This document shows positions 4,213-56,399 of a stretch of DNA of 64,000 nt, piece by piece. Origin of the DNA: a virus; IMG/VR virus record IMGVR_UViG_3300042935_001174, positions 62,001 to 126,000 of that record; one strand, given 5' to 3'. The notes below the pieces were generated by a model. That model was not told where the DNA came from and searched no databases. It saw only the letters and a list, made by a program, of their open reading frames with translations. The position numbers were made by a program, and so were the translations under genes. Position 1 is the stretch's first letter, and each line of letters opens with the position of its first letter.

Positions 4213-5982
4213 ATGTCGTGGAAAAAATATTTTAAAGTTGCCAACTCAAATGGTGAACTGAGTCCTTTATCAGGAAAAGGTTCTGACGGTCTACCCGGTT
4301 ACGGTCGTAACGATGGTAGAGATCCTATGAAAGGACATGCTGACATTGTTTACAGAAACTATGCCAGCAGATTGCCCGAAGTCTACACTGGCCATCCAAA
4401 TCGTGTTGAGCGTTATAACCAATACGAAAATATGGACAGTGACAGTGAGATCAATGCGTGTCTTGATATTCTGGCAGAATTTTCTACTCAAAAGAACGAA
4501 AACAACTCAACTCCTTTTGAAGTACAGTACAACGAAACTCCCACAGACAATGAAATTAGTATTATCAAGCAACAGCTTCAGCAATGGGTCAAGCTTAACA
4601 AGTTAGATCAGCGCATGTTCCGTATTTTCCGTAACACATTAAAATACGGAGATCAAGTGTTTGTACGAGATCCAGAAACATTTGAAATGTACTGGGTAGA
4701 CATGACCAAAGTAGCTAGAGTTATTGTCAACGAAAGTGAAGGCAAAAGACCCGAGCAGTATGTAATTCGTGACATTAATCCAAACTTTCAGAATCTTTCA
4801 ATAGCAGTTAAAACCACCACAGACTTTCAGAGTAATCCACCGTCAACTGGTTATACAGCACCCTACAATTACTCAGCACCTAACGCTGGTGCCGGCGGCT
4901 CTGGCGGCAATAGATTTAGTGCCGCAATGAATGAAACAGTTATTGATGCAAAACACGTGGTACACCTGAGTTTAAGCGAAGGCCTGGATTTTTATTGGCC
5001 GTTTGGCATGAGCGTACTGGAAACAATTTTCCGTGTTTTTAAACAAAAAGAACTGTTGGAAGATGCGGTTCTTATCTATCGTGTGGCCCGTGCTCCTGAA
5101 CGTAGAGTGTTTAAAATTGACGTGGGTAACATGCCAAGTCACATGGCCATGGCCTTTGTTGAACGAGTTAAAAACGAAATTCACCAACGTAGAATTCCCA
5201 GTCATACTGGCGGCGGCCAAAATGTCATGGATTCAAGCTATAACCCACTGAGTATCAACGAAGATTACTTCTTCCCACAAACAGCAGACGGTCGTGGTTC
5301 AAGTGTAGATACCCTGCCCGGTGGTTCAAATCTTGGCGAAATCGACGATTTAAAGTATTTTAATAACAAAATGTGTCGTGGATTGCGTGTGCCTTCGAGC
5401 TATTTGCCCACAGGTCCTGATGACAGCGATCGTCCAATGAATGATGGTCGTGTGGGTACTGCGCTCATACAAGAATACCGTTTTAACCAGTACTGTGAAC
5501 GACTACAACGTTTAGTTGTAGAAAAACTTGACGATGAATTCAAAATGTTCATGCGTTGGAGAGGATTTAACATTGACTCAGGGCTATTCAGTATTGAGTT
5601 TAATCCGCCACAGAACTTTGCCAGTTACCGCGAAGCTGAATTAGATACCACAAGAGTCAGCACGTTTGGTGCATTAGAACAAGTTCCTTATCTATCAAAA
5701 CGTTTCTTATTAAAACGTTATCTTGGATTGTCCGAAGAAGAAATTGCAGAAAATGAAGAACTTTGGCATCAAGAGCGAGCACAACCTGATGCTCCGGGCT
5801 CAACTGGTCAGGACCTACGTAGTGTGGGCGTTACACCAGCTGATTTTGAAACTGATATTCAAACCGGTGAAGAAATGGCTGATGCGCAAGCAACTCCAGA
5901 TCTTGGTGCAGAAGCTGGACTTGCCCCTGGATCTCAACCAGCCGCGGGTATCACACCACCCGGTCCTACGCCTGCGGTATAA
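4213..5982 (+). CDS. 20: Portal vertex protein gp20
   Basis: The 589-residue product is the dodecameric portal at the head vertex, through which DNA is packaged by gp17 and to which the neck attaches. The N-terminal third carries ENMDSDSEINACLDILAE, a hallmark of T4-type portals, followed by KYGDQVF and YVIRDINPN; a central part has GLDFYWPFGMSVLE and RAPERRVFKIDVGN. Length is slightly above T4 gp20 (524). Residues ~215-240 are Gly/Ser/Asn-rich and the C-terminus is Pro/Gly-rich, probably disordered. It is the first gene of the head operon, in the T4 order 20-(67/68)-21-22-23. Identification is confident. Confidence 0.95.
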   Translation: MSWKKYFKVANSNGELSPLSGKGSDGLPGYGRNDGRDPMKGHADIVYRNYASRLPEVYTGHPNRVERYNQYENMDSDSEINACLDILAEFSTQKNENNSTPFEVQYNETPTDNEISIIKQQLQQWVKLNKLDQRMFRIFRNTLKYGDQVFVRDPETFEMYWVDMTKVARVIVNESEGKRPEQYVIRDINPNFQNLSIAVKTTTDFQSNPPSTGYTAPYNYSAPNAGAGGSGGNRFSAAMNETVIDAKHVVHLSLSEGLDFYWPFGMSVLETIFRVFKQKELLEDAVLIYRVARAPERRVFKIDVGNMPSHMAMAFVERVKNEIHQRRIPSHTGGGQNVMDSSYNPLSINEDYFFPQTADGRGSSVDTLPGGSNLGEIDDLKYFNNKMCRGLRVPSSYLPTGPDDSDRPMNDGRVGTALIQEYRFNQYCERLQRLVVEKLDDEFKMFMRWRGFNIDSGLFSIEFNPPQNFASYREAELDTTRVSTFGALEQVPYLSKRFLLKRYLGLSEEEIAENEELWHQERAQPDAPGSTGQDLRSVGVTPADFETDIQTGEEMADAQATPDLGAEAGLAPGSQPAAGITPPGPTPAV

Positions 5983-7149: not shown

Positions 7150-7776
7150 ATGGCTCTTTACCTTAGAGAAAATCTTACCTTTAACCAGGCCAACATTATT
7201 GTTGAAGGCTCGGGCGAAGGTAAGGATCTCCACATGGTAGGAATCTGCATTCAGGGCGGAGTTAAAAACGCCAACGAACGTGTGTACCCAGTTAACGAAA
7301 TTGAACGTGCAGTTGGCACGTTAAATGAACAGATTACCAATGGTTATTCTGTTATGGGTGAGGTAGATCACCCTGACGATCTTAAAATTAATCTTGATCG
7401 AGTTAGTCATATGATCACATCCATGTGGATGGATGGTCCAAACGGATTCGGCAAGTTAAAAATTTTACCAACACCAATGGGTCAACTAGTTAAAACTATG
7501 TTGGAAAGTGGTGTTAAATTAGGAGTTTCGAGCCGCGGTTCCGGAAACGTAAACGAGGCCAACGGACATGTCAGTGACTTTGAAATAGTCACTGTAGATG
7601 TGGTTGCCCAACCCAGTGCGCCTAACGCATATCCAAAAGCCATCTATGAAGGCTTGATGAATATGAAATACGGACATCGTGTGCTAGAAATAGCACGTGA
7701 CGCTGGCCAGGACAACAAAGTACAGAGATATTTGAAGGGCGAAATTACTAAGCTCATCAAAGATCTCAAGATTTGA
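7150..7776 (+). CDS. 21: Prohead maturation protease gp21
   Basis: The 208-residue product matches T4 gp21 (212) in length, context and motifs. It is a serine protease of the herpesvirus-protease fold that cleaves scaffold and capsid proteins after L/I-x-E. Likely catalytic residues are His74 in MGEVDHPDD and Ser127 in GVSSRGSG, with Asp144 or Asp150 in the following DFEIVTVD strand. An SD-like AAGGA/CAGG lies before the ATG, 12 bases after the acidic core gene. It is followed closely by its substrate scaffold gene. Confidence 0.95.
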   Translation: MALYLRENLTFNQANIIVEGSGEGKDLHMVGICIQGGVKNANERVYPVNEIERAVGTLNEQITNGYSVMGEVDHPDDLKINLDRVSHMITSMWMDGPNGFGKLKILPTPMGQLVKTMLESGVKLGVSSRGSGNVNEANGHVSDFEIVTVDVVAQPSAPNAYPKAIYEGLMNMKYGHRVLEIARDAGQDNKVQRYLKGEITKLIKDLKI

Positions 7777-7786
7777 GGAGAATCGC

Positions 7787-8875
7787 ATGCTAGATGCTAT
7801 TAAACCGTTATTAGATAGCGACCTGATCAACGAGGAAACTCGTAGCGAGATCTCTGAAGCTTGGGAAGCCAAGCTAAATGAGACACGTGAGATGGTACGT
7901 GCAGAACTACGTGAAGAGTTTGCACAACGCTATGAGCATGATAAGACTGTAATGGTAGAAGCTCTAGATCGCATGGTAACAGAAGGTCTCAAAGTAGAAC
8001 TTGAGCAAGTGGCCGCTGAAAAGCGTAATCTTGCTGAAGACCGCGTTAAGTTCCAAGGCAAGATGAAAGAATCAGCTACAAAGTTTAACAACTTTATGGT
8101 TTCTAAACTTGCTGAAGAAATTGGCGAACTACGTAAAGACCGTAAAGCACACAATGAAGGACTAGAAAAACTAGAAAAATTCATTGTTATGGCTCTTGCA
8201 GAAGAGATCCAGGAGTTTGCAAAAGACAAGAAGGACGTTGTTGAAACCAAAGTTCGTCTAGTCCGTGAAGCTCGTGCAAAATTGGAAAGCTTAAAGTCAC
8301 GTTTCGTAAAAGAAAGTGCCGCTAAGATGAGCCAAGCTGTTAGTCATCATCTAAAAGCTGAACTATCACAGTTAAATGAAGACATCAAAGTTGCTCGAGA
8401 GAATAACTTTGGACGTAAAATCTTTGAAGCGTATGCAGCCGAATTCAGCAACACTCATTTAAATGAGAAAGTTGAAATGCGTAAACTGCACAATGTAATC
8501 GCAGAAAAAGAACGTCAACTGGCGGAAGCCACAAGAATCGCCAAGGATGCTAAAGTTTTAGTTGAATCCAAAGAGCGTGAAGTTCGAATGATTAAAGAAT
8601 CCAATGTACGTCAAGGTACTATGGAGGAATTGCTTTCTCCTCTAAACGAAGAGAAGCGCGAAGTCATGAAAAACTTACTGGAAAGCGTCCAAACTAACCG
8701 TTTGACAAACGCCTACGAAAAGTACTTACCAGCTGTACTAGCTAATACCACACCAAAAGCTAAAAAGGTGATTAGTGAAAGTGTTAGTGTTGTAACTGGT
8801 GATAAAACAGTCAAAGCGATTGAAGAAGATAAAAACAATGTTATCGACATCAAGCGTTTAGCAGGACTGAATTAA
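7787..8875 (+). CDS. 22: Prohead scaffold (core) protein gp22
   Basis: The 362-residue protein is almost entirely charged coiled coil (Glu/Lys/Ala-rich), as expected for the major head-assembly core protein. It starts MLDAIKPLLDSDLINEE, and the C-terminus ends IDIKRLAGLN. Candidate gp21 sites (I/L-x-E) occur at LINE near residue 15, PLNE and VISE near the C-terminus. A strong SD (GAGGAGA) precedes the ATG. The order gp21-gp22-gp23 is that of T4. Its terminal RLAGLN resembles a motif in the large virion protein at 52068. Confidence 0.9.
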   Translation: MLDAIKPLLDSDLINEETRSEISEAWEAKLNETREMVRAELREEFAQRYEHDKTVMVEALDRMVTEGLKVELEQVAAEKRNLAEDRVKFQGKMKESATKFNNFMVSKLAEEIGELRKDRKAHNEGLEKLEKFIVMALAEEIQEFAKDKKDVVETKVRLVREARAKLESLKSRFVKESAAKMSQAVSHHLKAELSQLNEDIKVARENNFGRKIFEAYAAEFSNTHLNEKVEMRKLHNVIAEKERQLAEATRIAKDAKVLVESKEREVRMIKESNVRQGTMEELLSPLNEEKREVMKNLLESVQTNRLTNAYEKYLPAVLANTTPKAKKVISESVSVVTGDKTVKAIEEDKNNVIDIKRLAGLN

Positions 8876-8894: not shown

Positions 8895-10112
8895 ATGTCA
8901 CAAGAATTATTAGAAGGTCGTTGGGACGAGACTAAAGAAGCCCTGCTCGAAGGTCTAAAAGGTAACCGTCGCAACTCGATGAACGTGATCCTAGAGAATA
9001 CACGTAAGTACCTAAAAGAAAACGCAAGTGCTGGTTCAACATCAGCAGGTAACATTGCCACACTTAACCGTGTGATTCTTCCAGTTATCCGTCGTGTCAT
9101 GCCAACAGTTATTGCTAACGAGTTGGTTGGTGTACAACCAATGACAGGACCAGTTGGTCAGATTCACACTCTGCGTGTACGCTATGCGTCTACAATGACT
9201 GATCAAACAGCAGCCGCTACTTCTGTAGTTGCTGGTGAAGAAGCATTGTCACCATTCAAGATCGCTACAGCATACTCTGCAGGCGCTCGTGGTGCTGATA
9301 ACGCCGCAACAACACAAACAGCCGCTCAAGGTTACTCTGGTGCTCCAACATCAACCCTTGAAGGCAACGGTGGTCGTCAGATCTCCGTTCAAATCTTGAA
9401 ACAAGCTGTTGAAGCCAAGACTCGCAAATTGCAAGCTCGTTGGACTTTTGAAGCCGCTCAAGACGCACAAGCTATGCATGGTATCGACGTTGAAGCCGAA
9501 ATTATGGCAGCTTTGGCTCAAGAGATCACAGCTGAAATTGACCAAGAGATTCTATTGAGCCTGCGCTCATTGGCTTCTACTGAGTTCACATACAACCAAG
9601 CTACCGTTTCTGGTACAGCTACATTCGTTGGTGACGAACATGCCGCATTGGCAGTTTTGATCAACCGTGTTGCTAACTTGATCGCCCAACGTACACGTCG
9701 TGGCGCAGGTAACTGGGCTGTTGTTTCTCCAGCATCTTTGACAGTATTGCAATCTGCTACAACTAGCGCATTTGCACGTACTACAGAAGGTACATTCGAA
9801 GCACCTACAAACACCAAGTTTGTTGGTACATTGAACGGCGCTATGCGTGTGTTCGTTGACTCTTATGCATCTGACTCAACACCAGTGTTGGTTGGTTACA
9901 AAGGTTCTTCAGAAGCTGACGCAGCCGCATTCTACTGCCCATACATTCCGTTGATGAGCAGTGGTGTTGTACTTGATCCATCAACATTCGAACCAGTTGT
10001 GTCATTCATGACACGTTACGGTTACATTGAACTTACTAACACAGCAAGTTCTTTCGGTAACGCTGGTGACTATGTTGGCGAGATCGCTGTATCTAACCTT
10101 TCATTCTCCTAA
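8895..10112 (+). CDS. 23: Major capsid protein gp23
   Basis: The 405-residue product (T4: 521) forms the hexamers of the head shell. Diagnostic stretches include NELVGVQPMTGPVGQIH with RVRYAST around residues 75-100, and the C-terminal PYIPLMSSGVVLDPSTFEPVVSFMTRYG. The N-terminal ~46 residues are a helical delta region (ELLEGRWDETKEALLEGL) and end in YLKE followed by NASAGSTSAG, a plausible gp21 cut site. Codon choice (frequent GTT, CGT, AAC) looks optimised as expected for the most abundant protein. A strong SD AAGGAGA precedes the ATG and a terminator follows 30 bases after the stop. Confidence 0.97.
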   Translation: MSQELLEGRWDETKEALLEGLKGNRRNSMNVILENTRKYLKENASAGSTSAGNIATLNRVILPVIRRVMPTVIANELVGVQPMTGPVGQIHTLRVRYASTMTDQTAAATSVVAGEEALSPFKIATAYSAGARGADNAATTQTAAQGYSGAPTSTLEGNGGRQISVQILKQAVEAKTRKLQARWTFEAAQDAQAMHGIDVEAEIMAALAQEITAEIDQEILLSLRSLASTEFTYNQATVSGTATFVGDEHAALAVLINRVANLIAQRTRRGAGNWAVVSPASLTVLQSATTSAFARTTEGTFEAPTNTKFVGTLNGAMRVFVDSYASDSTPVLVGYKGSSEADAAAFYCPYIPLMSSGVVLDPSTFEPVVSFMTRYGYIELTNTASSFGNAGDYVGEIAVSNLSFS

Positions 10113-42623: not shown

Positions 42624-43109
42624 ATGACTCGTAAACTTGAATCTTTATTTGATCTTCCATCTTCAGACACTGAAGATACTGTTGTGACACCCGAGTCACA
42701 GCCCACTTTCCCAGTACTACCAGAAACTCTAGATGCCTTAGACAAGATTGAGGCAGCATTACCTGCGGTTCGAGGACTAGAAGCCAGTGATCAGGAAATG
42801 GATGAACTGGCAGCCAAGGCCACTAAAGAATTTGACAATCTCATGGATCTTGGCATGCAGGTAGACAGCCGTTTTGCCAGTGAAATTTTTAGCGTTGCCA
42901 GCCAGATGCTAGGCCATGCTATCACAGCAAAAACTGCCAAGATGAATAAAAAACTAAAGATGATTGATCTACAGTTAAAGAAAGCAAAACTAGATAAAGA
43001 TGATGTTAACAATAACAACATCCCAACTGGTCAAGGTGCTGTGCTTGACCGTAATGAATTACTCAGCAGAATAGTCGATCGAACCAACACAAAGACGTCT
43101 GATCGATAA
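42624..43109 (+). CDS. 16: Terminase small subunit gp16
   Basis: The 161-residue product matches T4 gp16 (164) in length. After an acidic N-terminal part comes the conserved helical core EFDNLMDLGMQVDSRFASEIFSVASQMLGHAITAKTAKMNKKLKMIDLQLKKAKLDKD-like region (residues ~70-128). It forms rings that regulate gp17 during packaging. Unlike T4, where 16 and 17 are adjacent, about 7 kb separate it from gp17 here, filled with probable virion-internal proteins. The ATG follows a late promoter by 4 bases without SD. Confidence 0.85.
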   Translation: MTRKLESLFDLPSSDTEDTVVTPESQPTFPVLPETLDALDKIEAALPAVRGLEASDQEMDELAAKATKEFDNLMDLGMQVDSRFASEIFSVASQMLGHAITAKTAKMNKKLKMIDLQLKKAKLDKDDVNNNNIPTGQGAVLDRNELLSRIVDRTNTKTSDR

Positions 43110-43130: not shown

Positions 43131-43730
43131 ATGAAAACATTTGCACAATACTTGATTGAAAGTGCTCAAACCTTTGATTATCGTATTAAAATCATTGGTG
43201 ATTTGCCAGGTGGTTTTATGAAAGCTTTTAACGAAAAGTTAAAAAAATTCGACCCAATCAAAATCTCTGAGCCAAAGAAAACCCCAATTTTATCCAAACC
43301 AGTTGGGTTCCCAGACCATGCCAATCAGTCTGTAAACATCATTGATGTTAGTTTCAAATACCCTGCTACTCCTCCACAGGTGATTCAGATTGCTGAACTA
43401 CTGGGTCTTGATGCAAACAGCATTGTGATGGACCAACGTGACTGGGCTGAAGGTATGGACAAAGAGTTATTGGGCATTGAAAATCAAAAGGATCTGCTAA
43501 CCACAGATTTGCCACCAACAGACGCCGAACAGAAAAAATTAAAAGCTGATTATGCCGCTGAACCTAGCGAACATGAAGTTGTTAAAAATTCTGCCAAGGA
43601 TGCCAACTGGACTGTGGCCGGAGGCAAGACTGCACCTGCACAGACAACAAATCAATTGCCAATGGGAGTCAAAAGCCCAATGACAACAATTAAAAGACCA
43701 CCCAAGCCTGCAACCGGCTTCATGAAATAA
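43131..43730 (+). CDS. Candidate internal head protein with capsid-targeting N-terminus, 199 residues
   Basis: The N-terminus MKTFAQYLIE followed by SA closely resembles the T4 capsid-targeting sequence of internal proteins (as I recall it, MKTYQEFIAE) and ends in L-x-E, the gp21 cut site. The rest has an alpha/beta domain (YRIKIIGDLPGGFMKAF ... SVNIIDVSFKYPATPPQVIQIAELLG) and a Pro/Lys-rich tail (TTIKRPPKPATGFMK). I infer packaging into the head and ejection with DNA. No known effector family is recognised. It heads a run of similar genes after gp16. Confidence 0.7.
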   Translation: MKTFAQYLIESAQTFDYRIKIIGDLPGGFMKAFNEKLKKFDPIKISEPKKTPILSKPVGFPDHANQSVNIIDVSFKYPATPPQVIQIAELLGLDANSIVMDQRDWAEGMDKELLGIENQKDLLTTDLPPTDAEQKKLKADYAAEPSEHEVVKNSAKDANWTVAGGKTAPAQTTNQLPMGVKSPMTTIKRPPKPATGFMK

Positions 43731-43740
43731 GGAAAACAAC

Positions 43741-46032
43741 ATGACATTTTTTTACGACTTAAACAAGAAGCTGAGTGACTTGGCTGATAAACAAACTCTA
43801 AATGAAGGCATGAGCCGTGCTGCCAAGGGCTATGAAAAATACGGCAAGGAAGGCATGGAAGCCTTGGCCAAGGCCGGACGTGAAGGCAAGGCATTGGATC
43901 CTGTTCGCAAAAAACACGACAAGTACGACGAAGGTATGATCGGAACTGGCATTGGCGCAGGTCTTGGCGCACTGGCTCTTGGTCCACTAGGAGCAGTAGG
44001 CGGCGCAATTGCCGGCGACAAAATAGGTGATGCATTTGATGAAGACATGAGCAATGTAGTTAAAAAAATTGGCAGTGGTGTAAAGAAAGTTGGTCAGAAG
44101 GCCCTTGATACATTGGGCCATGGCAGTGACGAAGACATGATCCGTGACCTACAACGCAAAGCAGGCTTGCCACAAACAGGCAAGAAGCCCACTGGTGCTA
44201 GACCTACCGGCCACCCAATGGACGAAGGCGACATGGAAGAAGGCAATGAATTCAGCGGTGCATTACAAAACGCTAAAGCAACTGGACAAAAAGAATTTGA
44301 AGTTGACGGTAAAGAATATCCAGTCAAAGAAGCAGCCAAATGGCGCGATGCCAAGTACAAAGACAAACTGTACACACAAGAACCTCCTGACTATGAAAAC
44401 GATGATTACAGCATGGATGACTACTACAATGGTCCAAAACCAGATGACTATCCTGGCTCAAAGAATCTAAAAGGTGGTGGTGAATTTGATCACAACGATC
44501 CTTTACAAAAAGGACAAGGTATTGGCCGTAGCGGCATCAAGCACAACATACTAGATCGTGGGCCAAGAAAAGGAATGCCATCAAGAGACCAAATCACCAG
44601 TCTCAAAGGCAGTATTAAGGATGCACACGGAACACATGCACGACCCAATCTACCCGAAGCTGATGCACCAATGACTGCTAAACAAAAGTCATTTGCCGCA
44701 CTAGCCGAACCCAAAAACAAAATCACTTTTGCTGACAAGATTGCTGGCGCCAAGAAAGAAGTTGACGAAATGCTAGGTGACGTGGCTGCCGAAGCCATGA
44801 AGAAAGCACTAGGTGGCGGCATGGGCCGTAGTGCCGAAATGGAAGAAAAAGAAGATAACAGCCCATTCACAGCACACAAGCGTCCACGTGTAGAAAGACC
44901 CAAAGTTGGTAGTATTGAGCGTGGAGCATTGCATGACATCGAGCACACAGCAACTGGCCGCAAAGTAACACGCAGAGTTGATCCCAACACTGGCCACAGC
45001 GTGGGTACAGACGACACACCAGCCGCAGGAGACAAGCGCGGTAAAGGACGCCCAAAAGGCACAGGCAAAAGCATTGGAGCCAAAGGACCAAGCGGTACTT
45101 CTAAACTAATGACCAAAGAAGGTTCAGACTCAGGCCAAGCTCAAGAAATTTATAATGAACTTGCAGAACTACGTGCAATTGCTAAGAAAGCTCAGGGCGG
45201 AGGACAAATGCCACCAGGCTTTGCCAGTCGTCTTGAAAGCTCACTGTGGGCCGCAATGACAATGATTAAAAACAATCAGCCCGGTAATGCACAAGTTAGA
45301 GAAGAAGAATTGGACGAAAAAGCAACTAGCAAGAAGCAACAAAAGTTCATGGGCATGGTTCATGCCGCACAAAAAGGCAAAAAGCCAGCATCAAAAGAAG
45401 TTGCTAAAACAGCCAAAAGCATGGGCAAGAAAGATGCAGAAGACTTTGCCAGCACCAAGCACAAAGGTTTGCCTGAAAAGAAAACCAAGAAAAAAGAAGT
45501 TGAAGAAACAACAGTGGCAGGTTCAGTTGCAACTGCACCCAGCACAGGCAAAGCCAACGGCATGTTTGGCAAAGGCGTGTACGAAGCAAAGTTAGCTGAA
45601 AGTTTCAATGCTAAAATGGCACAACTCAATGAAGGCATGAATATCAATGCTTCTACAGATTCCGAAGGACACAATAGCATTACTGTATCTGCCACAGATG
45701 AAGATGCAGGAAAACTAGCACAAATTTTAAAGTTGGCTGGCATGGGCGGTGGCAGTGACGGCTACTCAGAAGTTTGCTCATCCTGCGGTTCTAGAGAATG
45801 TGGTTGTAATCAAGTTGACGAAGAGTTGGCCAACAGCGCAGACAACACTGAGTATGCTGGAATTGACACAATGACCAAAACACTCAGTGGTGGATTAAAC
45901 GGTCCTAAGACTACTGGACAAACAACAACTCCTGTGGTCAACCGTGATCCGGCTCGTGGATCAGTTGGTCCTGTGGCTGAAAGCCAAGAAGCCCGTTTGT
46001 GGGAATTATATCAACGTTATTCTACAAAATGA
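43741..46032 (+). CDS. Large basic, glycine-zipper internal head protein candidate, 763 residues
   Basis: The product is Lys/Gly-rich and low in complexity over much of its length. Possible gp21 sites are TLNE at residues 19-22 and QLNE at 628-631, both followed by Gly-Met. Residues ~68-98 form a GxxxG-rich hydrophobic segment (IGTGIGAGLGALALGPLGAV) able to span a membrane. The C-terminal part has CSSCGSRECGC, a possible metal knuckle. A Lys-rich stretch around 530-600 (KKPASKEVAKTAKSMGKKD) would bind DNA. I infer an internal virion protein that may be processed and ejected. The next ATG overlaps its stop (ATGA). Confidence 0.65.
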   Translation: MTFFYDLNKKLSDLADKQTLNEGMSRAAKGYEKYGKEGMEALAKAGREGKALDPVRKKHDKYDEGMIGTGIGAGLGALALGPLGAVGGAIAGDKIGDAFDEDMSNVVKKIGSGVKKVGQKALDTLGHGSDEDMIRDLQRKAGLPQTGKKPTGARPTGHPMDEGDMEEGNEFSGALQNAKATGQKEFEVDGKEYPVKEAAKWRDAKYKDKLYTQEPPDYENDDYSMDDYYNGPKPDDYPGSKNLKGGGEFDHNDPLQKGQGIGRSGIKHNILDRGPRKGMPSRDQITSLKGSIKDAHGTHARPNLPEADAPMTAKQKSFAALAEPKNKITFADKIAGAKKEVDEMLGDVAAEAMKKALGGGMGRSAEMEEKEDNSPFTAHKRPRVERPKVGSIERGALHDIEHTATGRKVTRRVDPNTGHSVGTDDTPAAGDKRGKGRPKGTGKSIGAKGPSGTSKLMTKEGSDSGQAQEIYNELAELRAIAKKAQGGGQMPPGFASRLESSLWAAMTMIKNNQPGNAQVREEELDEKATSKKQQKFMGMVHAAQKGKKPASKEVAKTAKSMGKKDAEDFASTKHKGLPEKKTKKKEVEETTVAGSVATAPSTGKANGMFGKGVYEAKLAESFNAKMAQLNEGMNINASTDSEGHNSITVSATDEDAGKLAQILKLAGMGGGSDGYSEVCSSCGSRECGCNQVDEELANSADNTEYAGIDTMTKTLSGGLNGPKTTGQTTTPVVNRDPARGSVGPVAESQEARLWELYQRYSTK

Positions 46033-47090
46033 AAACATTAAAAGATTACCTAACTGAAGCCGAGGAGTGGTCCGCTACTCCTGCTGTGGGCGACACATTT
46101 GCCTTTGACTACGGAGATCAATGCCTGGTAGAAACTCACATTGTTGATGTGGTTGGAAACGATATTATTCTTCATGCTGATGCTCGTGCAATTGAACTGC
46201 TGGAATCTCACGGATTTACTTCTGAAGAAATTCGTCGTTATGGTGCAGTAGGAAATAGCCCAGGTATGGGATATAGCATTGGCGAAGACCAATCAGCTGG
46301 AGTACTGGCAGCAAAAGAAATAGACACAGATATCACTAATCCCATGCCAGGAGTACACGAAAGTTTGGACGATGAAACATCTCCGGCTGAACGTGCAATC
46401 TTACATCGTATTTTGATGCAACACTCGAGTTTGTTAGGTCGTCATGGACCACAGGCAGTGATGGATGCTGTTAAAGATGTTGCCGAGTGGGTTGGGGATG
46501 TAGAAGAAATTGGATCCAGCGATGTTAGTGGTTGGGTACGAGACGTTATCCGCACACTAGATGATTCATCTGATCAAGTAAAAGAATCCGATATTGATGT
46601 GATTGACAGCGGAGAATACGACCAAGAAGGCGATATGGCCAAAGATGATCTTGAAACCATTGTTCGTGCCGCTCGTAGACTCACAGGCATGTTAGACGAC
46701 AATGAAAACATGCCAGAATGGGTACAGTCAAAAATCAACAAAGCCGCAGACTATGTTGACACAGCCGCAGATTATATTGAAAGCAATCAAGACGAGTCTG
46801 ATGAAGTTGAAATGACCGAAGCTGAGTATCAAGGTCGTAACGTGCCGCTGAGCAAACCCATGCGTGGTGATGTTAAAAAGTTTAAAGTTTATGTCAAAGA
46901 TCCCAGCACCGGTAACATTAAAAAAGTAAACTTTGGACATGGTGGCACAAGTGCTAAACGTGCTGGCCAAAAGACAATGAAGATCAAGAAATCTGACCCT
47001 GCACGTCGTAAGAGTTTTAGAGCAAGACACAACTGCGAAAACCCAGGGCCAAGAACTAAAGCACGTTATTGGTCTTGCCGAGCATGGTAA
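46029..47090 (+). CDS. Internal head protein candidate with conserved basic C-terminal domain, 353 residues
   Basis: Start at ATG 46029 (MKTLKDYLTE, then AE), overlapping the previous stop; an earlier in-frame ATG at 45999 lies inside the previous gene. The N-terminus again looks like a capsid-targeting sequence with an L-T-E cut site. The middle is acidic and helical. The C-terminal ~80 residues (GRNVPLSKPMRGDVKKFKVYVKD ... RRKSFRARHNCENPG, TKARYWSCRAW) match a basic domain common in aquatic T4-like phages (I believe DUF5872), with two Cys and one His that might bind metal. Its function is unknown. Confidence 0.7.
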   Translation: MKTLKDYLTEAEEWSATPAVGDTFAFDYGDQCLVETHIVDVVGNDIILHADARAIELLESHGFTSEEIRRYGAVGNSPGMGYSIGEDQSAGVLAAKEIDTDITNPMPGVHESLDDETSPAERAILHRILMQHSSLLGRHGPQAVMDAVKDVAEWVGDVEEIGSSDVSGWVRDVIRTLDDSSDQVKESDIDVIDSGEYDQEGDMAKDDLETIVRAARRLTGMLDDNENMPEWVQSKINKAADYVDTAADYIESNQDESDEVEMTEAEYQGRNVPLSKPMRGDVKKFKVYVKDPSTGNIKKVNFGHGGTSAKRAGQKTMKIKKSDPARRKSFRARHNCENPGPRTKARYWSCRAW

Positions 47091-47106
47091 AAAAGGAAAA
47101 TAACAA

Positions 47107-47385
47107 ATGAGTCAAGCAAACGTTTATACATCAGCCAGTAGTCAAACATGGTACACAGATAAAGCTAGAATATCCACAGGTACAAACACAGTTACATACA
47201 ATGTAAATTTAGTATATGGTCCGTCTACTGGTAATTTATATTCAAATCCCATTGTGATTCCTGCAAACAATCGTGTGACTGTTTGGGTAGGAGTTGGCAA
47301 TCAACTCACAATCACTGGGTCTAACGCCACTATACAAGAAGTTGGTACCGCAAGCTCAGGACAAGTTGGCGTCTGGCAGCCATAA
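47107..47385 (+). CDS. Small beta-rich virion protein, 92 residues
   Basis: The product (MSQANVYTSASSQTWYTDKARI) is Ser/Thr/Asn-rich with strands TNTVTYNVNLVYGP, NRVTVWVGVGNQLTITG. It resembles a small decoration or fibre-tip protein, comparable in size and composition to the one at 13786. SD AAAGGAAA precedes the ATG, and its stop overlaps the next ATG by one base. It lacks the capsid-targeting N-terminus of its neighbours. Confidence 0.6.
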   Translation: MSQANVYTSASSQTWYTDKARISTGTNTVTYNVNLVYGPSTGNLYSNPIVIPANNRVTVWVGVGNQLTITGSNATIQEVGTASSGQVGVWQP

Positions 47386-47756
47386 TGAGAGCACGTGAAT
47401 TCATTGCGGAAAGAGACGGCACTATAGGCACACGCAGACAAGCTGCCACTGTGGGTCTTGATGTGTTCGGTGATGCTGAACGAACAAACAGTGACTATAC
47501 TCTTAATCGCGTGATGATGGCAGTGGCCATGGCTGACGGATCAAACACACCTATCAAGATGGATGCCAAAAGTTGGGTAGGTAAAAAACGCTCTGCACAT
47601 CCTTATACCAAGATTGAACAAAACATGCTCAAGCAAGCTTTCAAAGCCGCTGGCGCAGACTACAAAGATTTAAACAATGGCGACCTGGACAGCGAAGAAC
47701 ATCCAGAAGTGAATACTGCAAGCCCTGTTGTGGGCTTCAAAGGTTATCCAAGATGA
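47385..47756 (+). CDS. Internal head protein candidate A (MRAREFIAE ... FKGYPR), 123 residues
   Basis: The N-terminus MRAREFIAE followed by RD resembles the T4 capsid-targeting sequence with an I-x-E cut site. The C-terminus SPVVGFKGYPR is shared with the next protein (SPVKAFKGYPR). Between them is a region of about 100 residues (GTIGTRRQAATVGLDVFGDAERT...MLKQAFKAAGADYKDL) not similar to its neighbour. The ends are conserved while the middle differs, as in the T4 internal proteins. The stop overlaps the next ATG by 4 bases. Confidence 0.7.
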   Translation: MRAREFIAERDGTIGTRRQAATVGLDVFGDAERTNSDYTLNRVMMAVAMADGSNTPIKMDAKSWVGKKRSAHPYTKIEQNMLKQAFKAAGADYKDLNNGDLDSEEHPEVNTASPVVGFKGYPR

Positions 47757-48145
47757 GAGCACGTGAGTTTATCACAGAACAGGCATCTGAATTGCCTCCC
47801 GAGCAGGCCGATCCCATGCGTTACACCTATGTGGTACCTGGGCTGTCAGCCGCTGACCCATATAGAAATTATAGATTTGGTGTAGCTCTAGCCCGAGCAA
47901 GAAGTGATGCTGGCAAAGCCGACGGAGTTAACCCCGACATACCTGAATGGCACAACGAGACTGCATTTGGGGAACACGGCATTGTTGCAGGCATGACCCC
48001 AGGAGTTGATCAACTCATTGATGCCGCATTACAAATGACCAACACACCTGGCGGTAAACGACTGGTGTCAAGTGGTCCCAGTGAAGAACCTGCCTTTGTA
48101 GATACACAAAGTCCTGTAAAGGCATTCAAAGGATATCCACGATAA
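47753..48145 (+). CDS. Internal head protein candidate B (MRAREFITE ... FKGYPR), 130 residues
   Basis: It begins MRAREFITE followed by QA and ends SPVKAFKGYPR, the same bookends as the preceding gene. The middle (YTYVVPGLSAADPYRNYRFGVALARARSDAGKADGVNPDIPEW ... VDQLIDAALQMTNTPGG in part) resembles a domain seen in other aquatic phage virion proteins, but I cannot name it. I infer gp21 cleavage after ITE and packaging into the head. The next ATG overlaps the stop by one base. Confidence 0.7.
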   Translation: MRAREFITEQASELPPEQADPMRYTYVVPGLSAADPYRNYRFGVALARARSDAGKADGVNPDIPEWHNETAFGEHGIVAGMTPGVDQLIDAALQMTNTPGGKRLVSSGPSEEPAFVDTQSPVKAFKGYPR

Positions 48146-48420
48146 TGGCAAACCCACCACCATACAACAACATCACAGGCATCAGCCGTGCTGTAATGAA
48201 AGACAACGCTCAGGTAACTCTCGCAAACTATGACGGCAATGCTAGACCCGGCGAGCTAGTTGTTGACCAAACTACCGATCAAGTGTTTATTGGCAATAGT
48301 TCAGGTGCATTAACACAGATTGCCGCAGGCATTGAGAACGGTGGATCCAGTGGATTGCCCGCAGGATTTTATCAAATGGCATACAATCCAACCACAGGTG
48401 AGATTGTTTACTACACTTAA
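48145..48420 (+). CDS. Small fibre-type protein, 91 residues
   Basis: The product contains SRAVMKDNAQVTLANYDGNARPG and ELVVDQTTDQVFIGNSSGAL, similar in pattern to the N-terminal attachment domains of phage fibres (compare GANGEISVDTDLHVLRIADG in the gene at 23488). At 91 residues it is a short stand-alone version ending PTTGEIVYYT. It directly precedes another virion surface protein gene. Confidence 0.7.
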   Translation: MANPPPYNNITGISRAVMKDNAQVTLANYDGNARPGELVVDQTTDQVFIGNSSGALTQIAAGIENGGSSGLPAGFYQMAYNPTTGEIVYYT

Positions 48421-50010: not shown

Positions 50011-50448
50011 ATGAAAAAACTCTTAACTCTCTTACTCATTGTGCCATGCTTGGCCTTTGCACAACCCAAACAAAAACCTGGTGTTGTTTATGATGCTGTG
50101 ATCACCAGAGTCATAGACGGCGACACAGTGGGTATTCAGGCCACCTGGTTACCTGCACCACTCAAACAGGAACTCAGTATTCGTGTGTTTGGAGTTGATA
50201 CTCCTGAAAAAGGACATAGAGCCATGTGTCCTAGTGAAGCTCAACGTGGTGAGGCAGCTTCGGCGTTTACTAAACAAATGATTGCCAACAGCCAAAAGCG
50301 ACAGATTGTGCTTATGGACTGGGACAAGTATGGCGGCCGTGTGCTGGGCGATGTCATACTAAACGGTGTCAGTCTACGTCAGCAATTGATTGCCAATGGT
50401 TTTGCACGTGAATACTACGGCGAAGCCAAAACTAGTTGGTGTAATTAA
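50011..50448 (+). CDS. Thermonuclease (SNase family) with signal peptide
   Basis: The 145-residue product begins with a signal peptide (MKKLLTLLLIVPCLAFAQ, cut expected after Ala17). The staphylococcal nuclease fold follows: VIDGDTV (Asp36, Asp38), RVFGVDTPE (Arg58, Asp63), RGEAAS (Glu81) and KYGGRVLGDV (Arg110), which line up with the catalytic Arg35/Glu43/Arg87 pattern and calcium ligands. It should be exported to the periplasm or outside, where it could degrade DNA of competing phages or recover nucleotides. It is 4 bases after a virion gene and just upstream of terminase. Confidence 0.88.
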   Translation: MKKLLTLLLIVPCLAFAQPKQKPGVVYDAVITRVIDGDTVGIQATWLPAPLKQELSIRVFGVDTPEKGHRAMCPSEAQRGEAASAFTKQMIANSQKRQIVLMDWDKYGGRVLGDVILNGVSLRQQLIANGFAREYYGEAKTSWCN

Positions 50449-50486: not shown

Positions 50487-52055
50487 ATGAGTAAGTCTTT
50501 AGAAGGCGTTTTAATCAAGCCACCCCATCTACGTGTTAACTATACCGAGCAACAGCTTGATGAATTCATTGCCTGTGCCGATCCTGCTAGTGGTCCACTT
50601 TATTTTATGGACCACTTTTTCTACATACAACACCCTACCCAAGGTCGAATGTTGTATCATCCATTTGAATATCAACGCAGGCTAATTCACACTTATCATA
50701 ATTATCGATACAGCATTAGTTTAATGCCTCGACAAACTGGTAAGTCAACATCAGCCGCAGGCTATCTACTCTGGTACGCAATGTTTGTACCTGATTCAAC
50801 CATATTAGTTGCGGCACACAAATACACAGGCGCACAAGAGATCATGCAACGTGTGAGGTACGCCTATGAATCAGTACCTGATCATATTCGTGCTGGTGTC
50901 ACCAGCTACAACAAAGGTAGTTTGGAATTTGACAACGGCTCACGTATAGTGTCGGCAACAACCACAGAAAATACCGGTCGTGGTATGAGTATATCATTAC
51001 TATACGCAGACGAATTTGCATTTGTTCGACCCACAATTGCCACAGAGTTTTGGACTTCTATCAGTCCCACACTGGCCACTGGTGGTAAAGCAATTATCAC
51101 AAGTACTCCCAACAGTGACGAAGACCAGTTTGCTCTGTTATGGAAAGGCGCCAATCGTTGTGAAGACGAATTTGGTAATCCTACTGAAATTGGTGTCAAT
51201 GGCTTCAAAGCCTATCGTAGCTTCTGGAATGAGCATCCTGACCGTGACGAATCTTGGGCAACACAACAACGTGCGGCCTTAGGGTCAGATCGTTTCCGAC
51301 GTGAAATGGATTGTGAATTCATCATCAATGATGAAACGCTGATTGCCCCAACCACATTAATTGACTTACAAGGTGTAGACCCAGTTTATAAAACTGGTGA
51401 AGTCAGATGGTATCAACGAATAGATCCTGAAAAAATCTATGTTGTTGCACTTGATCCTAGTCTGGGCACCGGCGGTGATCCAGCGGCAATTCAGATATTT
51501 GATGCAAACTCTACACTACAGGTTGGAGAGTGGAGACATAATAAAACTGACATTCCTGGACAGGTTAGAATACTAGCTGATATTATTCGACACATTAACG
51601 AAACTGTGCGAGATCCAAAAAGTATATATTTTTCAGTAGAAAATAACACCATTGGAGAAGCCGCACTAATTTCTATTGCTGAATACGGAGAAGAAAACAT
51701 ACAAGGCTATTTCCTTAGTGAACCTGGAGTTAGTGTTAGTCGTAGATTCCGTAAAGGATTTAACACAACCAACAAGTCAAAGCTATCTGCTTGCGCCAAG
51801 TTAAAACATCTGGTTGAATCAAAGCGCATGAAAATCAACAGTAAAAGCCTGATCAGCGAACTTAAAAACTTTGTTGCGTCGGGCGCAAGCTATGCGGCAA
51901 AACTGGGAGAAACAGACGATCTAGTGATGTCAACCTTGCTGGTGGTTAGAATGATGCAGTTATTGCAGAGTTATCACCAGAATCTTGATGATCAAATGCG
52001 CGATCACCAGGACGTGGTAATCGAACCGCTGCCGTTTGTTATGACAATGATGTAA
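50487..52055 (+). CDS. 17: Terminase large subunit gp17
   Basis: The 522-residue product (T4: 610) is the packaging motor ATPase and nuclease. Walker A is PRQTGKST (residues 81-88), Walker B LLYADE (171-176) with catalytic Glu176, and coupling motif TSTPN near 206-210. The C-terminal nuclease has ALDPSLGTGGDPAA (Asp323), YFSVENNTIGEA (Glu385) and a late ETDDLV acidic site. It translocates DNA through the portal. The gene has no SD and follows a weak late-promoter-like motif. Confidence 0.95.
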   Translation: MSKSLEGVLIKPPHLRVNYTEQQLDEFIACADPASGPLYFMDHFFYIQHPTQGRMLYHPFEYQRRLIHTYHNYRYSISLMPRQTGKSTSAAGYLLWYAMFVPDSTILVAAHKYTGAQEIMQRVRYAYESVPDHIRAGVTSYNKGSLEFDNGSRIVSATTTENTGRGMSISLLYADEFAFVRPTIATEFWTSISPTLATGGKAIITSTPNSDEDQFALLWKGANRCEDEFGNPTEIGVNGFKAYRSFWNEHPDRDESWATQQRAALGSDRFRREMDCEFIINDETLIAPTTLIDLQGVDPVYKTGEVRWYQRIDPEKIYVVALDPSLGTGGDPAAIQIFDANSTLQVGEWRHNKTDIPGQVRILADIIRHINETVRDPKSIYFSVENNTIGEAALISIAEYGEENIQGYFLSEPGVSVSRRFRKGFNTTNKSKLSACAKLKHLVESKRMKINSKSLISELKNFVASGASYAAKLGETDDLVMSTLLVVRMMQLLQSYHQNLDDQMRDHQDVVIEPLPFVMTMM

Positions 52056-55673: not shown

Positions 55674-56399
55674 ATGAGGGGCAATTTATCAATTGGTTGC
55701 ACTGATACATCGTGTATCCCCCTAGTTAGTAAATTATTTGAGCTTGGATATAGACCTGAAGAAATTCAGGTCTATCATCCGCCTAATCAGTTGCTGTTAA
55801 CAAAATTTTGTGACCAATTGTTAATACAGCACACATCAATTTCAGATAACAACGACTTTAATAAGTATGTTACACAATCTGCAGAGTTGATGTTAAACAT
55901 CAGTGGTATTCCTTTTTTAATATCTGAAGATAATATTAAAAAATTTCCAAATGGCATTATAAATTTACATACAGGGTTGCTTGAAGAATATCGAGGACGA
56001 TGGATGTCAAGCTGGGCATTAATTAACAATGAAAAATTTACCGGCTATACCTGGCACTATGTTAACAGTCAATTTGATGCTGGCAATATTATATTTCAAC
56101 AGAAATTTTTAATCTCCAAACAAGACACAGCATTTAGTTTAAATTTTAAAATACTAAACCATGCAATTGAATCAATTGAGCATGTATTAACAAAGAATTT
56201 AGGAACACCTCCAACAAAACTTGGACGTTATTATAATAAAGAAAAACCATTTAACGGAATTATACAGGATGGTTGGTCCAACAATCAAATTAACCAATTT
56301 ATTAAAGCAATGTACTATCCTCCGTATGAGCCAGCTATATTTTTAAAAAATAATGTTAAACATTATGTAAATACCTTTGATGAATACAAAAATATATGA
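55674..56399 (+). CDS. Formyltransferase-family enzyme
   Basis: The 241-residue product has the N-H-D catalytic triad of methionyl-tRNA/sugar formyltransferases: Asn97 and His99 in INLHTGLLEEYRG, and Asp135 in SQFDAGNIIFQQ, with the GYTWHYV strand between. The N-terminal Rossmann part is IGCTDTSCIPLVSKLFELGY. It uses 10-formyl-tetrahydrofolate. At this length it lacks the C-terminal tRNA-binding domain of Fmt, so a nucleotide-sugar amine is the more likely substrate; Gmd at 60764 supports this. The stop overlaps the next ATG by 4 bases. Confidence 0.82.
   Translation: MRGNLSIGCTDTSCIPLVSKLFELGYRPEEIQVYHPPNQLLLTKFCDQLLIQHTSISDNNDFNKYVTQSAELMLNISGIPFLISEDNIKKFPNGIINLHTGLLEEYRGRWMSSWALINNEKFTGYTWHYVNSQFDAGNIIFQQKFLISKQDTAFSLNFKILNHAIESIEHVLTKNLGTPPTKLGRYYNKEKPFNGIIQDGWSNNQINQFIKAMYYPPYEPAIFLKNNVKHYVNTFDEYKNI

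Follow-up and report, generated by a model that had tools for sequence, protein, structure and literature searches.

The window analysed here, the whole 64,000-nt stretch of a 175-kb IMG/VR virus record of an uncultured T4-like phage, carries a run of genes between its two terminase subunits, several of which begin with similar short N-termini, and the question is what these genes encode and what their shared starts do. All features described lie on the plus strand. At the left border, the gp16-like small terminase subunit (42624-43109) gives a weak profile match (phrog_445, E 0.0091) and is backed by EST35_0201 of phage PA5oct, which sits at the same position; at the right border, the gp17 large terminase subunit (50487-52055) is clear by Pfam and PHROGs (PF03237, PF17289 and phrog_36964). 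The four label genes lie where the original prediction had placed them. In particular, a 199-aa protein (43131-43730) begins with MKTFAQYLIE, with a predicted cut before S (label 43131-43160); a 353-aa protein (46029-47090) with MKTLKDYLTE, before A (label 46029-46058); a 123-aa protein (47385-47756) with the 9-residue MRAREFIAE, before R (label 47385-47411); and its 130-aa paralogue (47753-48145) with the 9-residue MRAREFITE, before Q (label 47753-47779). The 353-aa length is counted from the ATG at 46029; the mechanical open reading frame begins at the GTG at 45999. The run also contains a 92-aa protein without a label (47107-47385) and a 763-aa candidate multi-site core protein (43741-46032), whose conserved N-terminal FF-x-x-LNK is followed by the expected LNE, found at residues 20-22 with a predicted cut before G. 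A close DNA match for the sequence was not found in the phage collection.

We consider it highly probable that the 199-, 353-, 123- and 130-aa proteins and their like are internal head proteins of the T4 superfamily, targeted to the prohead, cut by gp21 and probably ejected. According to this explanation, the 9- or 10-residue N-terminal capsid-targeting sequence would dock the protein onto the prohead scaffold core, and a gp21-family protease would then cleave behind the Glu of L/I-x-E, leaving the mature cargo free inside the head, where it would be packed alongside the DNA and, probably, be ejected together with it. The 123- and 130-aa paralogues and the 199-aa protein would be released whole, while the 763- and 353-aa proteins would be cut again into head fragments, one being DUF3008-like and another a C-terminal domain with two Cys. 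Within the original reading as internal head proteins, the part on capsid targeting and gp21-type processing has, as a prediction, good support from the sequence, a protease in the same genome and a match to T4 mutational data, and virion proteomes of relatives add support in part; ejection, an effector function, counter-defence and any effect on the host are what we infer. The principle of such a label is already known; the cargo, the scale and the details are new.

Several lines of evidence reject a chance resemblance. The window has 663 ATG starts that open at least 40 codons. Two strict tag patterns pick out exactly 4 of them, namely the four genes; as the patterns were composed with the genes known, the count measures absence elsewhere and is not an independent discovery. 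Pattern searches of the full record return the same four only, and reversed control patterns return none. More independent are a positional test, scans unconstrained on the Glu and homologues chosen by their bodies alone, all of which argue against chance. Across 1125 other genes, [FY][LIM]xE starts at residue 6 in 43 genes and at residue 7 in 28, and no further position from 2 to 50 has more than 4. In the scans that leave the Glu free, 94 of 106 proteins with an MRAREF start carry E at residue 9 (27 of 32 cargo clusters), and MKTF..Y[LF] starts have E at residue 10 in 86 of 99 (29 of 39 clusters). Tagged reading frames shorter than 40 aa were excluded here (109 to 106 for MRAREF; 119 to 102 for MKTF), and the 106 and 99 count only loci of the scans themselves, three reading frames from the loci of other scans having been removed from the MKTF count. 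Six of the 12 MRAREF starts that lack the Glu belong to small proteins of the MRAREFVIN or MRAREFIIN type. The same scans bear on whether the N-termini target another part of the virion, such as the tail or baseplate, with L-x-E being incidental. Cell-wall hydrolases (GH19, SLT and LysM) do occur among the tagged cargo and tail genes lie nearby, but the Glu is common even where the scan does not ask for it, the pattern is that of the T4 internal-protein label, and gp23 has the same type of site, making such a destination very improbable.

The conserved residues of the labels correspond to a known mutational map. When homologues of the 199- and 353-aa proteins are chosen by body (loci L003-L122), residues 2, 4, 7, 8 and 10 of their N-termini are conserved. 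Among 16 distinct N-termini of the 199-aa type, residue 4 is F/Y, residue 7 is Y and residue 8 is L in all 16, and residue 10 is E in 15 and D in one. Among 11 distinct N-termini of the 353-aa type, residue 4 is L/F, residue 7 is Y and residue 10 is E in all 11, and residue 8 is L/I in 10 and F in one. The window's own 199- and 353-aa proteins have L/I-x-E at residues 8-10. N-termini were recovered from 18 of 18 loci with a 199-type match, 11 of 39 with a 353-type match and 10 of 35 with a 763-type match; the remaining loci had no match near the protein start or no suitable ATG. In T4 IPIII, residues 4 and 7 act in targeting and residues 8 and 10 in processing, as described in the available text of PMC9026906, and by sequence comparison the conservation of the 199- and 353-aa N-termini is that map. 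The 123- and 130-aa proteins differ: MRAREFIxE has no aromatic residue 4, and its cutting half, EFIxE, matches T4. The 9-residue MRA[RS]EFIxE is a variant label without the T4 residue-4 aromatic, and the original description of labels of about ten residues holds for the MKT labels, whereas MRAREFIxE is one residue shorter than the T4 label. The T4 start given in the original prediction, MKTYQEFIAE, is accurate, as both IPII and IPIII begin with MKTYQEFIAEA. Further, a profile of the environmental label, run over 335 candidate starts on a 45-kb stretch of T4, ranks IPII and IPIII first and IPI sixth.

Overall, the T4 proteins IPI, IPII and IPIII share with the window's proteins a diverse cargo, a gp21-family protease and aromatic or hydrophobic residues 4 and 7, and IPII and IPIII also share L/I at residue 8 and E at residue 10. 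In contrast to T4, the window includes a label of nine residues that lacks an aromatic at position 4, and further internal sites are candidates for a second cut; its tagged genes stand between gp16 and gp17, whereas the T4 ip genes lie elsewhere and T4 genes 16 and 17 overlap; the searches run found no kinship between the cargoes.

The original prediction also proposed that relatives would carry the N-terminus on differing C-terminal domains, and both cargo clusters and distinct Pfam domains bear this out. Across IMG/VR, the label occurs on 33 cargo clusters of at least 40 aa (three shorter rows were excluded from clustering), five of which are single sequences cut by the end of a locus, and it heads at least 28 clusters without detectable mutual similarity. 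Scanning 20 tagged proteins revealed GNAT, GH19, SLT, LysM and HTH domains among them, and one tagged relative (L029) has an ART-PolyVal-like match (E 4.4e-6, below the Pfam cut-off). This diversity rejects the idea that the MRAREF genes are a single diverged family whose start is due to common descent rather than to a movable label. The 123/130-aa family does take up 128 of the 208 distinct tagged genes, but the other clusters have no BLAST-detectable similarity beyond residue 12 and carry different Pfam domains, so that we regard common descent as extremely unlikely. A DNA or RNA element, such as a promoter or a translation or recombination site, could also create a shared start, and the label does sit at the starts of reading frames, although it was searched for there. 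However, its codons vary synonymously across 123 distinct genes (five codons for Arg2, four for Ala3, three for Ile7 and two each for Glu5, Phe6 and Glu9), which rejects such an element and leaves it a practically negligible probability. At the other end of the proteins, SP[VMIL] recurs as a C-terminal motif in two tagged families with non-matching profiles and may be a second signal.

The window encodes an apparent cutter for such labels: a gp21-family prohead protease (7150-7776; PF03420, E 3.9e-24). Around it lie the portal gp20 (4213-5982; PF07230, E 1.6e-102), a gp22-like scaffold assigned by position alone, with no Pfam match at E 0.01 (7787-8875), and the major capsid protein gp23 (8895-10112; PF07068, E 1.8e-99), in which a site alignment places LKE (residues 40-42) immediately before the mature domain. 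The protease test covered this record and, of 120 loci, the 24 in records longer than 60 kb. Both gp21 and gp23 are present in all nine records of at least 150 kb; gp21 was not found in 14 of the 25 tagged records, 13 of which also lack a portal.

By their sequences, the 763- and 353-aa proteins look like core substrates that are cut several times. The 763-aa protein has 19 [LIVM]xE sites where 9.4 are expected (p 0.0005, z 3.8), and the gp22-like scaffold has 27 where 14.0 are expected (z 4.5); apart from that scaffold, the excess in unrelated window proteins reaches at most z 2.2. Three sites of the 763-aa protein are kept in 20 of 23, 20 of 23 and 24 of 24 homologues, and several further sites are not conserved. 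One of the kept sites, LDE (residues 524-526; 45310-45318), found in 20 of 23 aligned homologues, immediately precedes the DUF3008-like domain (residues 528-581; 45322-45483; PF11450, E 1.3e-4, below the Pfam cut-off; phrog_30268, E 1.1e-21). The 353-aa protein has an acidic-looking middle and a basic-looking, two-Cys C-terminal domain, which is preceded by a second candidate cleavage site, MTE before A (residues 262-264; 46812-46820); all 13 aligned members have [MIVL]-x-E there.

Searches on the cargo itself yielded little. The model of the 199-aa protein (mean pLDDT 66.4) is mostly at 77-86 over residues 11-100, with a low-confidence tail that contains an SPM motif. It resembles an alpha-beta plait at about residues 13-105 (best Z 8.6 to a ribosome chain; 8.2 to ribosomal protein S6), a common fold that implies no function, and Foldseek returned nothing from the PDB under E 0.001. 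A BFVD match to Ip7 of phage MX01 was weak (E 2.3e-3) and does not count as evidence. Profile searches with the 199- and 353-aa proteins gave no match below E 0.001, and the profile of the 199-aa family does not match that of the 123/130-aa family. The model of the 130-aa protein (mean pLDDT 81.5) has one BFVD match below E 0.001, to an uncultured phage protein, and no PDB match below that value, just one chain having been compared. The 123- and 130-aa proteins had no useful match in Pfam or PHROGs, tblastn of the 130-aa protein against the phage collection found none, and a match of the 123/130 profile to an S-layer chain (E 6.2e-4) is probably due to chance.

Data on presence in virions come from three relatives. 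The virion list of cyanophage S-CREM2 (PMC10665884 Table 3) includes each of its four strictly tagged proteins (P 0.00036): a SAM hydrolase, a kinase, a cytidylyltransferase and one unknown. A looser label tags 10 proteins, 5 of which are absent from the virions in that table. The strict patterns were set before this genome was obtained, and the looser one was composed with the test, which covered 218 of 219 genes (gp207, at a stretch border, was left out, and gp85 and gp135 were shortened at the 3′ end). For S-SZBM1, scanned over 140000 of 177834 bases, the virion list of 30 (PMC9146016 Table 1) contains neither of the two strictly tagged proteins in that part. In PA5oct, EST35_0202, EST35_0203 and EST35_0205 are all flagged by ESI-MS/MS. 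EST35_0202 occupies the same place as the 199-aa protein and is a homologue of that family (E 1.6e-19); its start, MKSFRDYYDAS, keeps residues 4 and 7 and has changed residues 8 and 10, the Glu being missing, so that cleavage there is not predicted. EST35_0205 is homologous to tagged cargo of another locus (L113, E 2.4e-31), and kinship of EST35_0203 to the 763-aa protein is not established.

The gene order of relatives raises a further alternative: the labels would indeed act in prohead targeting and be cleaved, with the cargo consisting of structural or DNA-condensing core parts that stay in the head, like the T4 internal peptides, and not of ejected effectors. The window's order from the sheath to gp17 is retained in a related locus (L042), with the exception of a 519-aa gene, and PA5oct has the 199-aa gene at the same position; so stable a place of this gene and its neighbours would be expected of core or DNA-associated head parts no less than of effectors that change fast. 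The scaffold-like site density of the 763-aa protein and the two-Cys domain that ends the 353-aa protein point the same way, but relatives carry the same labels on enzymes without a known head role. We give this alternative somewhat less than an even chance. The two readings are not exclusive, since in T4 the internal proteins belong to the core and are also ejected, according to the available text of PMC9026906.

Other systems process head proteins similarly. T4 Alt, an injected ADP-ribosyltransferase, also has an L/I-x-E cut near its N-terminus and a second one (ITE-6 and LTE-619; listed in PMC5694885), whereas the window's tagged proteins have no ADP-ribosyltransferase match in Pfam or PHROGs. 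In SPN3US, the prohead protease likewise cuts head proteins after Glu; unlike here, the motif is A-x-E and the propeptides are mostly far longer, as far as PMC5694885 describes them. No printed account of the present label, of MRAREFI, or of a capsid targeting sequence together with phage metagenomics was found in the literature searched, which mostly excludes subscription journals. The capsid-targeting literature mostly concerns T4, P1, P22 and SPN3US, and its overlap with cyanophages is a T4 review alone. The main text of the S-CREM2 paper (PMC10665884), as available, has no mention of targeting, propeptide, N-terminal, internal protein or cleavage.

We find it moderately likely that environmental phages of the T4 superfamily use MRA[RS]EFIxE and MKxFxxYLxE generally, as a label for loading and delivery that works like a secretion signal and injects exchangeable enzymes; acetyltransferases, ADP-ribosyltransferases, nucleotidyltransferases, kinases, a SAM hydrolase and a Cas9-like nuclease, taken jointly, would with similarly modest confidence be among them. 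Cyanophage virion proteomes repeatedly show enzymes, and at least one study could not separate them from carry-over, which the S-CREM2 authors name as a possible source (PMC10665884, in the part available). For S-CREM2, where the label sits on three enzymes of this kind and on an unknown protein, it offers an explanation of why these are in virions. If the general label is true, it could by itself serve to search for injected proteins of host takeover and counter-defence: related phages put it on many different proteins, and it may therefore help to find proteins that are injected into bacteria. As a ten-residue pattern that is searchable in any contig, it would open a direct way, starting from metagenomic data, to proteins which phages may deliver as soon as infection begins; many of these have no family match.

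Nine genes lie between the gp16-like gene (42624-43109) and gp17 (50487-52055). Four of them have the capsid-targeting-like starts reported in the original prediction, encoding proteins of 199 aa (MKTFAQYLIE; 43131-43730), 353 aa (MKTLKDYLTE; 46029-47090), 123 aa (MRAREFIAE; 47385-47756) and 130 aa (MRAREFITE; 47753-48145). As also described there, a fifth gene, for a 763 aa core-protein candidate (43741-46032), has LNE at residues 20-22, and the T4 sequence given there agrees with the N-terminus of IPII and IPIII, MKTYQEFIAEA. The window carries a T4-like head module with portal (PF07230), gp21-family protease (PF03420) and gp23 (PF07068). The best reading of the tagged proteins is that they are T4-type internal head proteins, whose capsid-targeting sequence would load them into the head and whose label gp21 would cut. 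Nearby, a 91 aa protein (48145-48420) matches the Mtd N-terminal domain very weakly (E 0.018); a small protein directly before gp17 (50011-50448) has a signal-peptide-like start and what we take to be a thermonuclease-like sequence; and a formyltransferase-like protein (55674-56399; PF00551, E 2.7e-16) adjoins the single-strand binding protein.

Two strict patterns match 4 of the window's 663 ATG starts, exactly the four tagged genes; across the whole virus record of 175184 bases, they find no further match and reversed control patterns give 0 matches. Since the strict patterns were derived from such genes, three further tests less dependent on the answer were applied. In particular, among 1125 genes without the query label, drawn from at least 120 IMG/VR loci and non-independent because many are family members, [FY][LIM]xE starts at residue 6 in 43 genes and at residue 7 in 28; no other starting position within residues 2-50 accounts for more than 4. 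Moreover, in sample scans that did not require the Glu, with the MKTF count restricted to the loci of its own scan, 94 of the 106 MRAREF starts listed have Glu at residue 9, and 86 of the 99 MKTF..Y[LF] starts listed have it at residue 10; it is present in most members of 27/32 MRAREF and 29/39 MKTF cargo clusters. The Glu-less starts among these listed matches include membrane-like and frame-internal ones for MKTF, and six small MRAREFVIN or MRAREFIIN proteins for MRAREF. One small family, whose members begin with MRAREFVINVPI or MRAREFIINLPI (phage loci L128, L131, L176, L203, L205 and L210), has the label's targeting half without the Glu, and might be loaded but left uncut.

Further, SP[VMIL] occurs within the last 20 residues of 205/471 tagged reading frames versus 115/5143 others, counts that take in non-coding frames and many homologues. 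Such tails (KSPMTTIKRPPK; QSPVKAFKGYPR) are common to the 199 aa family (43131-43730) and the 123/130 aa family (47385-48145), two families without a profile match between them, and the motif is possibly a second signal.

Homologues of the 199 and 353 aa proteins picked by body alone (16 and 11 distinct N-termini, one being the window's own copy, L119) keep residues 2, 4, 7, 8 and 10, vary at residues 3, 5 and 9, and partially conserve residues 11 and 12; residue 6 is variable in the 199 aa family and D or E in the 353 aa family. According to a review's account of the T4 IPIII label, residues 4 and 7 serve targeting and residues 8 and 10 processing, and Asp at residue 10 blocks processing while still allowing targeting (PMC9026906). 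The four residues functional in IPIII are among those conserved in both families; one 199 aa family member (L036) has Asp at residue 10.

Virion data are available for relatives. Table 3 of PMC10665884 gives 52 proteins detected in virions of cyanophage S-CREM2; these include each of the four that carry a strict tag (SAM hydrolase gp6, gp13, kinase gp14 and cytidylyltransferase gp154), with a probability of 0.00036 by chance against the background of 28/194 tested genes, 24 detected structural proteins being left out. A looser label pattern is found in 5/28 virion genes versus 5/166 others (p 0.007). In the Cas9-like virion protein gp12 (L339), FASFMAE at residues 19-25 resembles the label, which would fit an extended propeptide or a true start further downstream. 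Between the S-CREM2 terminase genes, gp136 (MQTFSMFFSED) and gp137 are both in virions; gp136 does not match the 199 aa family. For S-SZBM1, the published list has 30 virion proteins with one enzyme, a cytidylyltransferase (PMC9146016), whose start, MRFRQFIIEA, is not a strict match; the 140 kb scanned contain two strictly tagged genes, both located between terminase genes and both absent from that list. Between the terminase genes of this cyanophage, genes 191, 192 and 194 (L357) encode two tagged proteins and, by eye, a DUF3008-like protein. The space between terminase genes may be a shared internal-protein locus. In the relative PA5oct, EST35_0202 (199 aa family; E 1.6e-19) and EST35_0205 (homologous to an MRAREFIIE-tagged protein, L113; E 2.4e-31) both carry an ESI-MS/MS flag in the database record. 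The former starts MKSFRDYYDAS, in which residues 4 and 7 are retained but 8 and 10 are not; we infer that its flag despite this loss is the pattern expected of targeting without cutting.

PF03420 and PF07068 co-occur in the same 11 of 25 label-bearing records, some of them close relatives of one another or of the window (PF07068 above cut-off in 10), and in all nine such records of at least 150 kb. Because 13 of the other 14 also lack the portal and one has it at the contig end, their head module is probably off the fragment; as far as fragments allow, protease and label go together. L-x-E stands just before the mature capsid protein domain in 10/10 records compared (with a slash at the predicted cut, LKE/N in the window, LAE/S and LFE/S elsewhere), while the S-CREM2 capsid protein, the eleventh row, aligns differently at this site.

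From their sequences, the 763 and 353 aa proteins look like polyproteins. The former has 19 [LIVM]xE sites versus 9.4 in shuffles (p 0.0005; z 3.8, compared to 4.5 in the gp22-like scaffold), but part of such an excess is ordinary, since z runs from -0.5 for the capsid protein to 2.2 for the single-strand binding protein among the window's other proteins, and from 1.2 to 3.7 among 14 homologues of the 763 aa protein. Aligned homologues keep LNE 20-22 in 20/23, LDE 524-526, immediately before the DUF3008-like domain, in 20/23 and LNE 629-631 in 24/24; with all sites taken together, their Glu is just moderately more conserved than other Glu residues (p 0.02), and several of the sites show no conservation. 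All 13 aligned members of the 353 aa family have a second [MIVL]xE followed by AEYxGR or AKYxGR, and the HTVC008M relative has LEE/AEFQG. A two-Cys domain ending KARYWSCRAW (46812-47090) follows the x-E site in this family, and also matches pelagi-, roseo-, flavo- and methylophage proteins, mostly annotated hypothetical.

As predicted, relatives carry the same label on different cargo. When at least 208 distinct tagged genes on at least 120 IMG/VR loci are grouped by BLAST on the sequence beyond residue 12, they form at least 33 cargo clusters (40 aa or more), or at least 28 without five single-sequence clusters truncated where the locus ends; 128 of the 208 genes fall within the family that includes the 123 and 130 aa proteins, for which Pfam and PHROG gave nothing useful. 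Twenty cargo proteins scanned with Pfam include, above cut-offs, GNAT acetyltransferases, a GH19 chitinase domain, SLT transglycosylases, LysM and HTH domains, GP88 and DUF6267 and, below cut-off, one ART-PolyVal and one KOW domain; eight have no Pfam match. A GS...DID motif in L029 and L115 suggests Pol-beta-type nucleotidyltransferases, without a model match. On this sequence evidence, the label has moved from protein to protein.

The principle is not new, since T4 is reported to carry foreign LacI into heads by a 10-residue label (PMC10229621) and a review proposes it as a means by which T4-like phages load a variety of proteins (PMC9026906). As far as our searches reach, what is new is the cargo, the breadth of occurrence among environmental phages, the gene run flanked by gp16 and gp17, and the 9-residue MRA[RS]EFIxE form, which lacks the aromatic residue 4 of the T4 label and whose role in targeting is less firmly supported. 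The 199, 353 and 763 aa proteins may be head components. Because T4 IPI is reported to counter GmrSD and IPIII to be needed on strain ECOR17 (PMC3012670, PMC9391042), a counter-defence role is, by analogy, a fair guess for some of the cargo.
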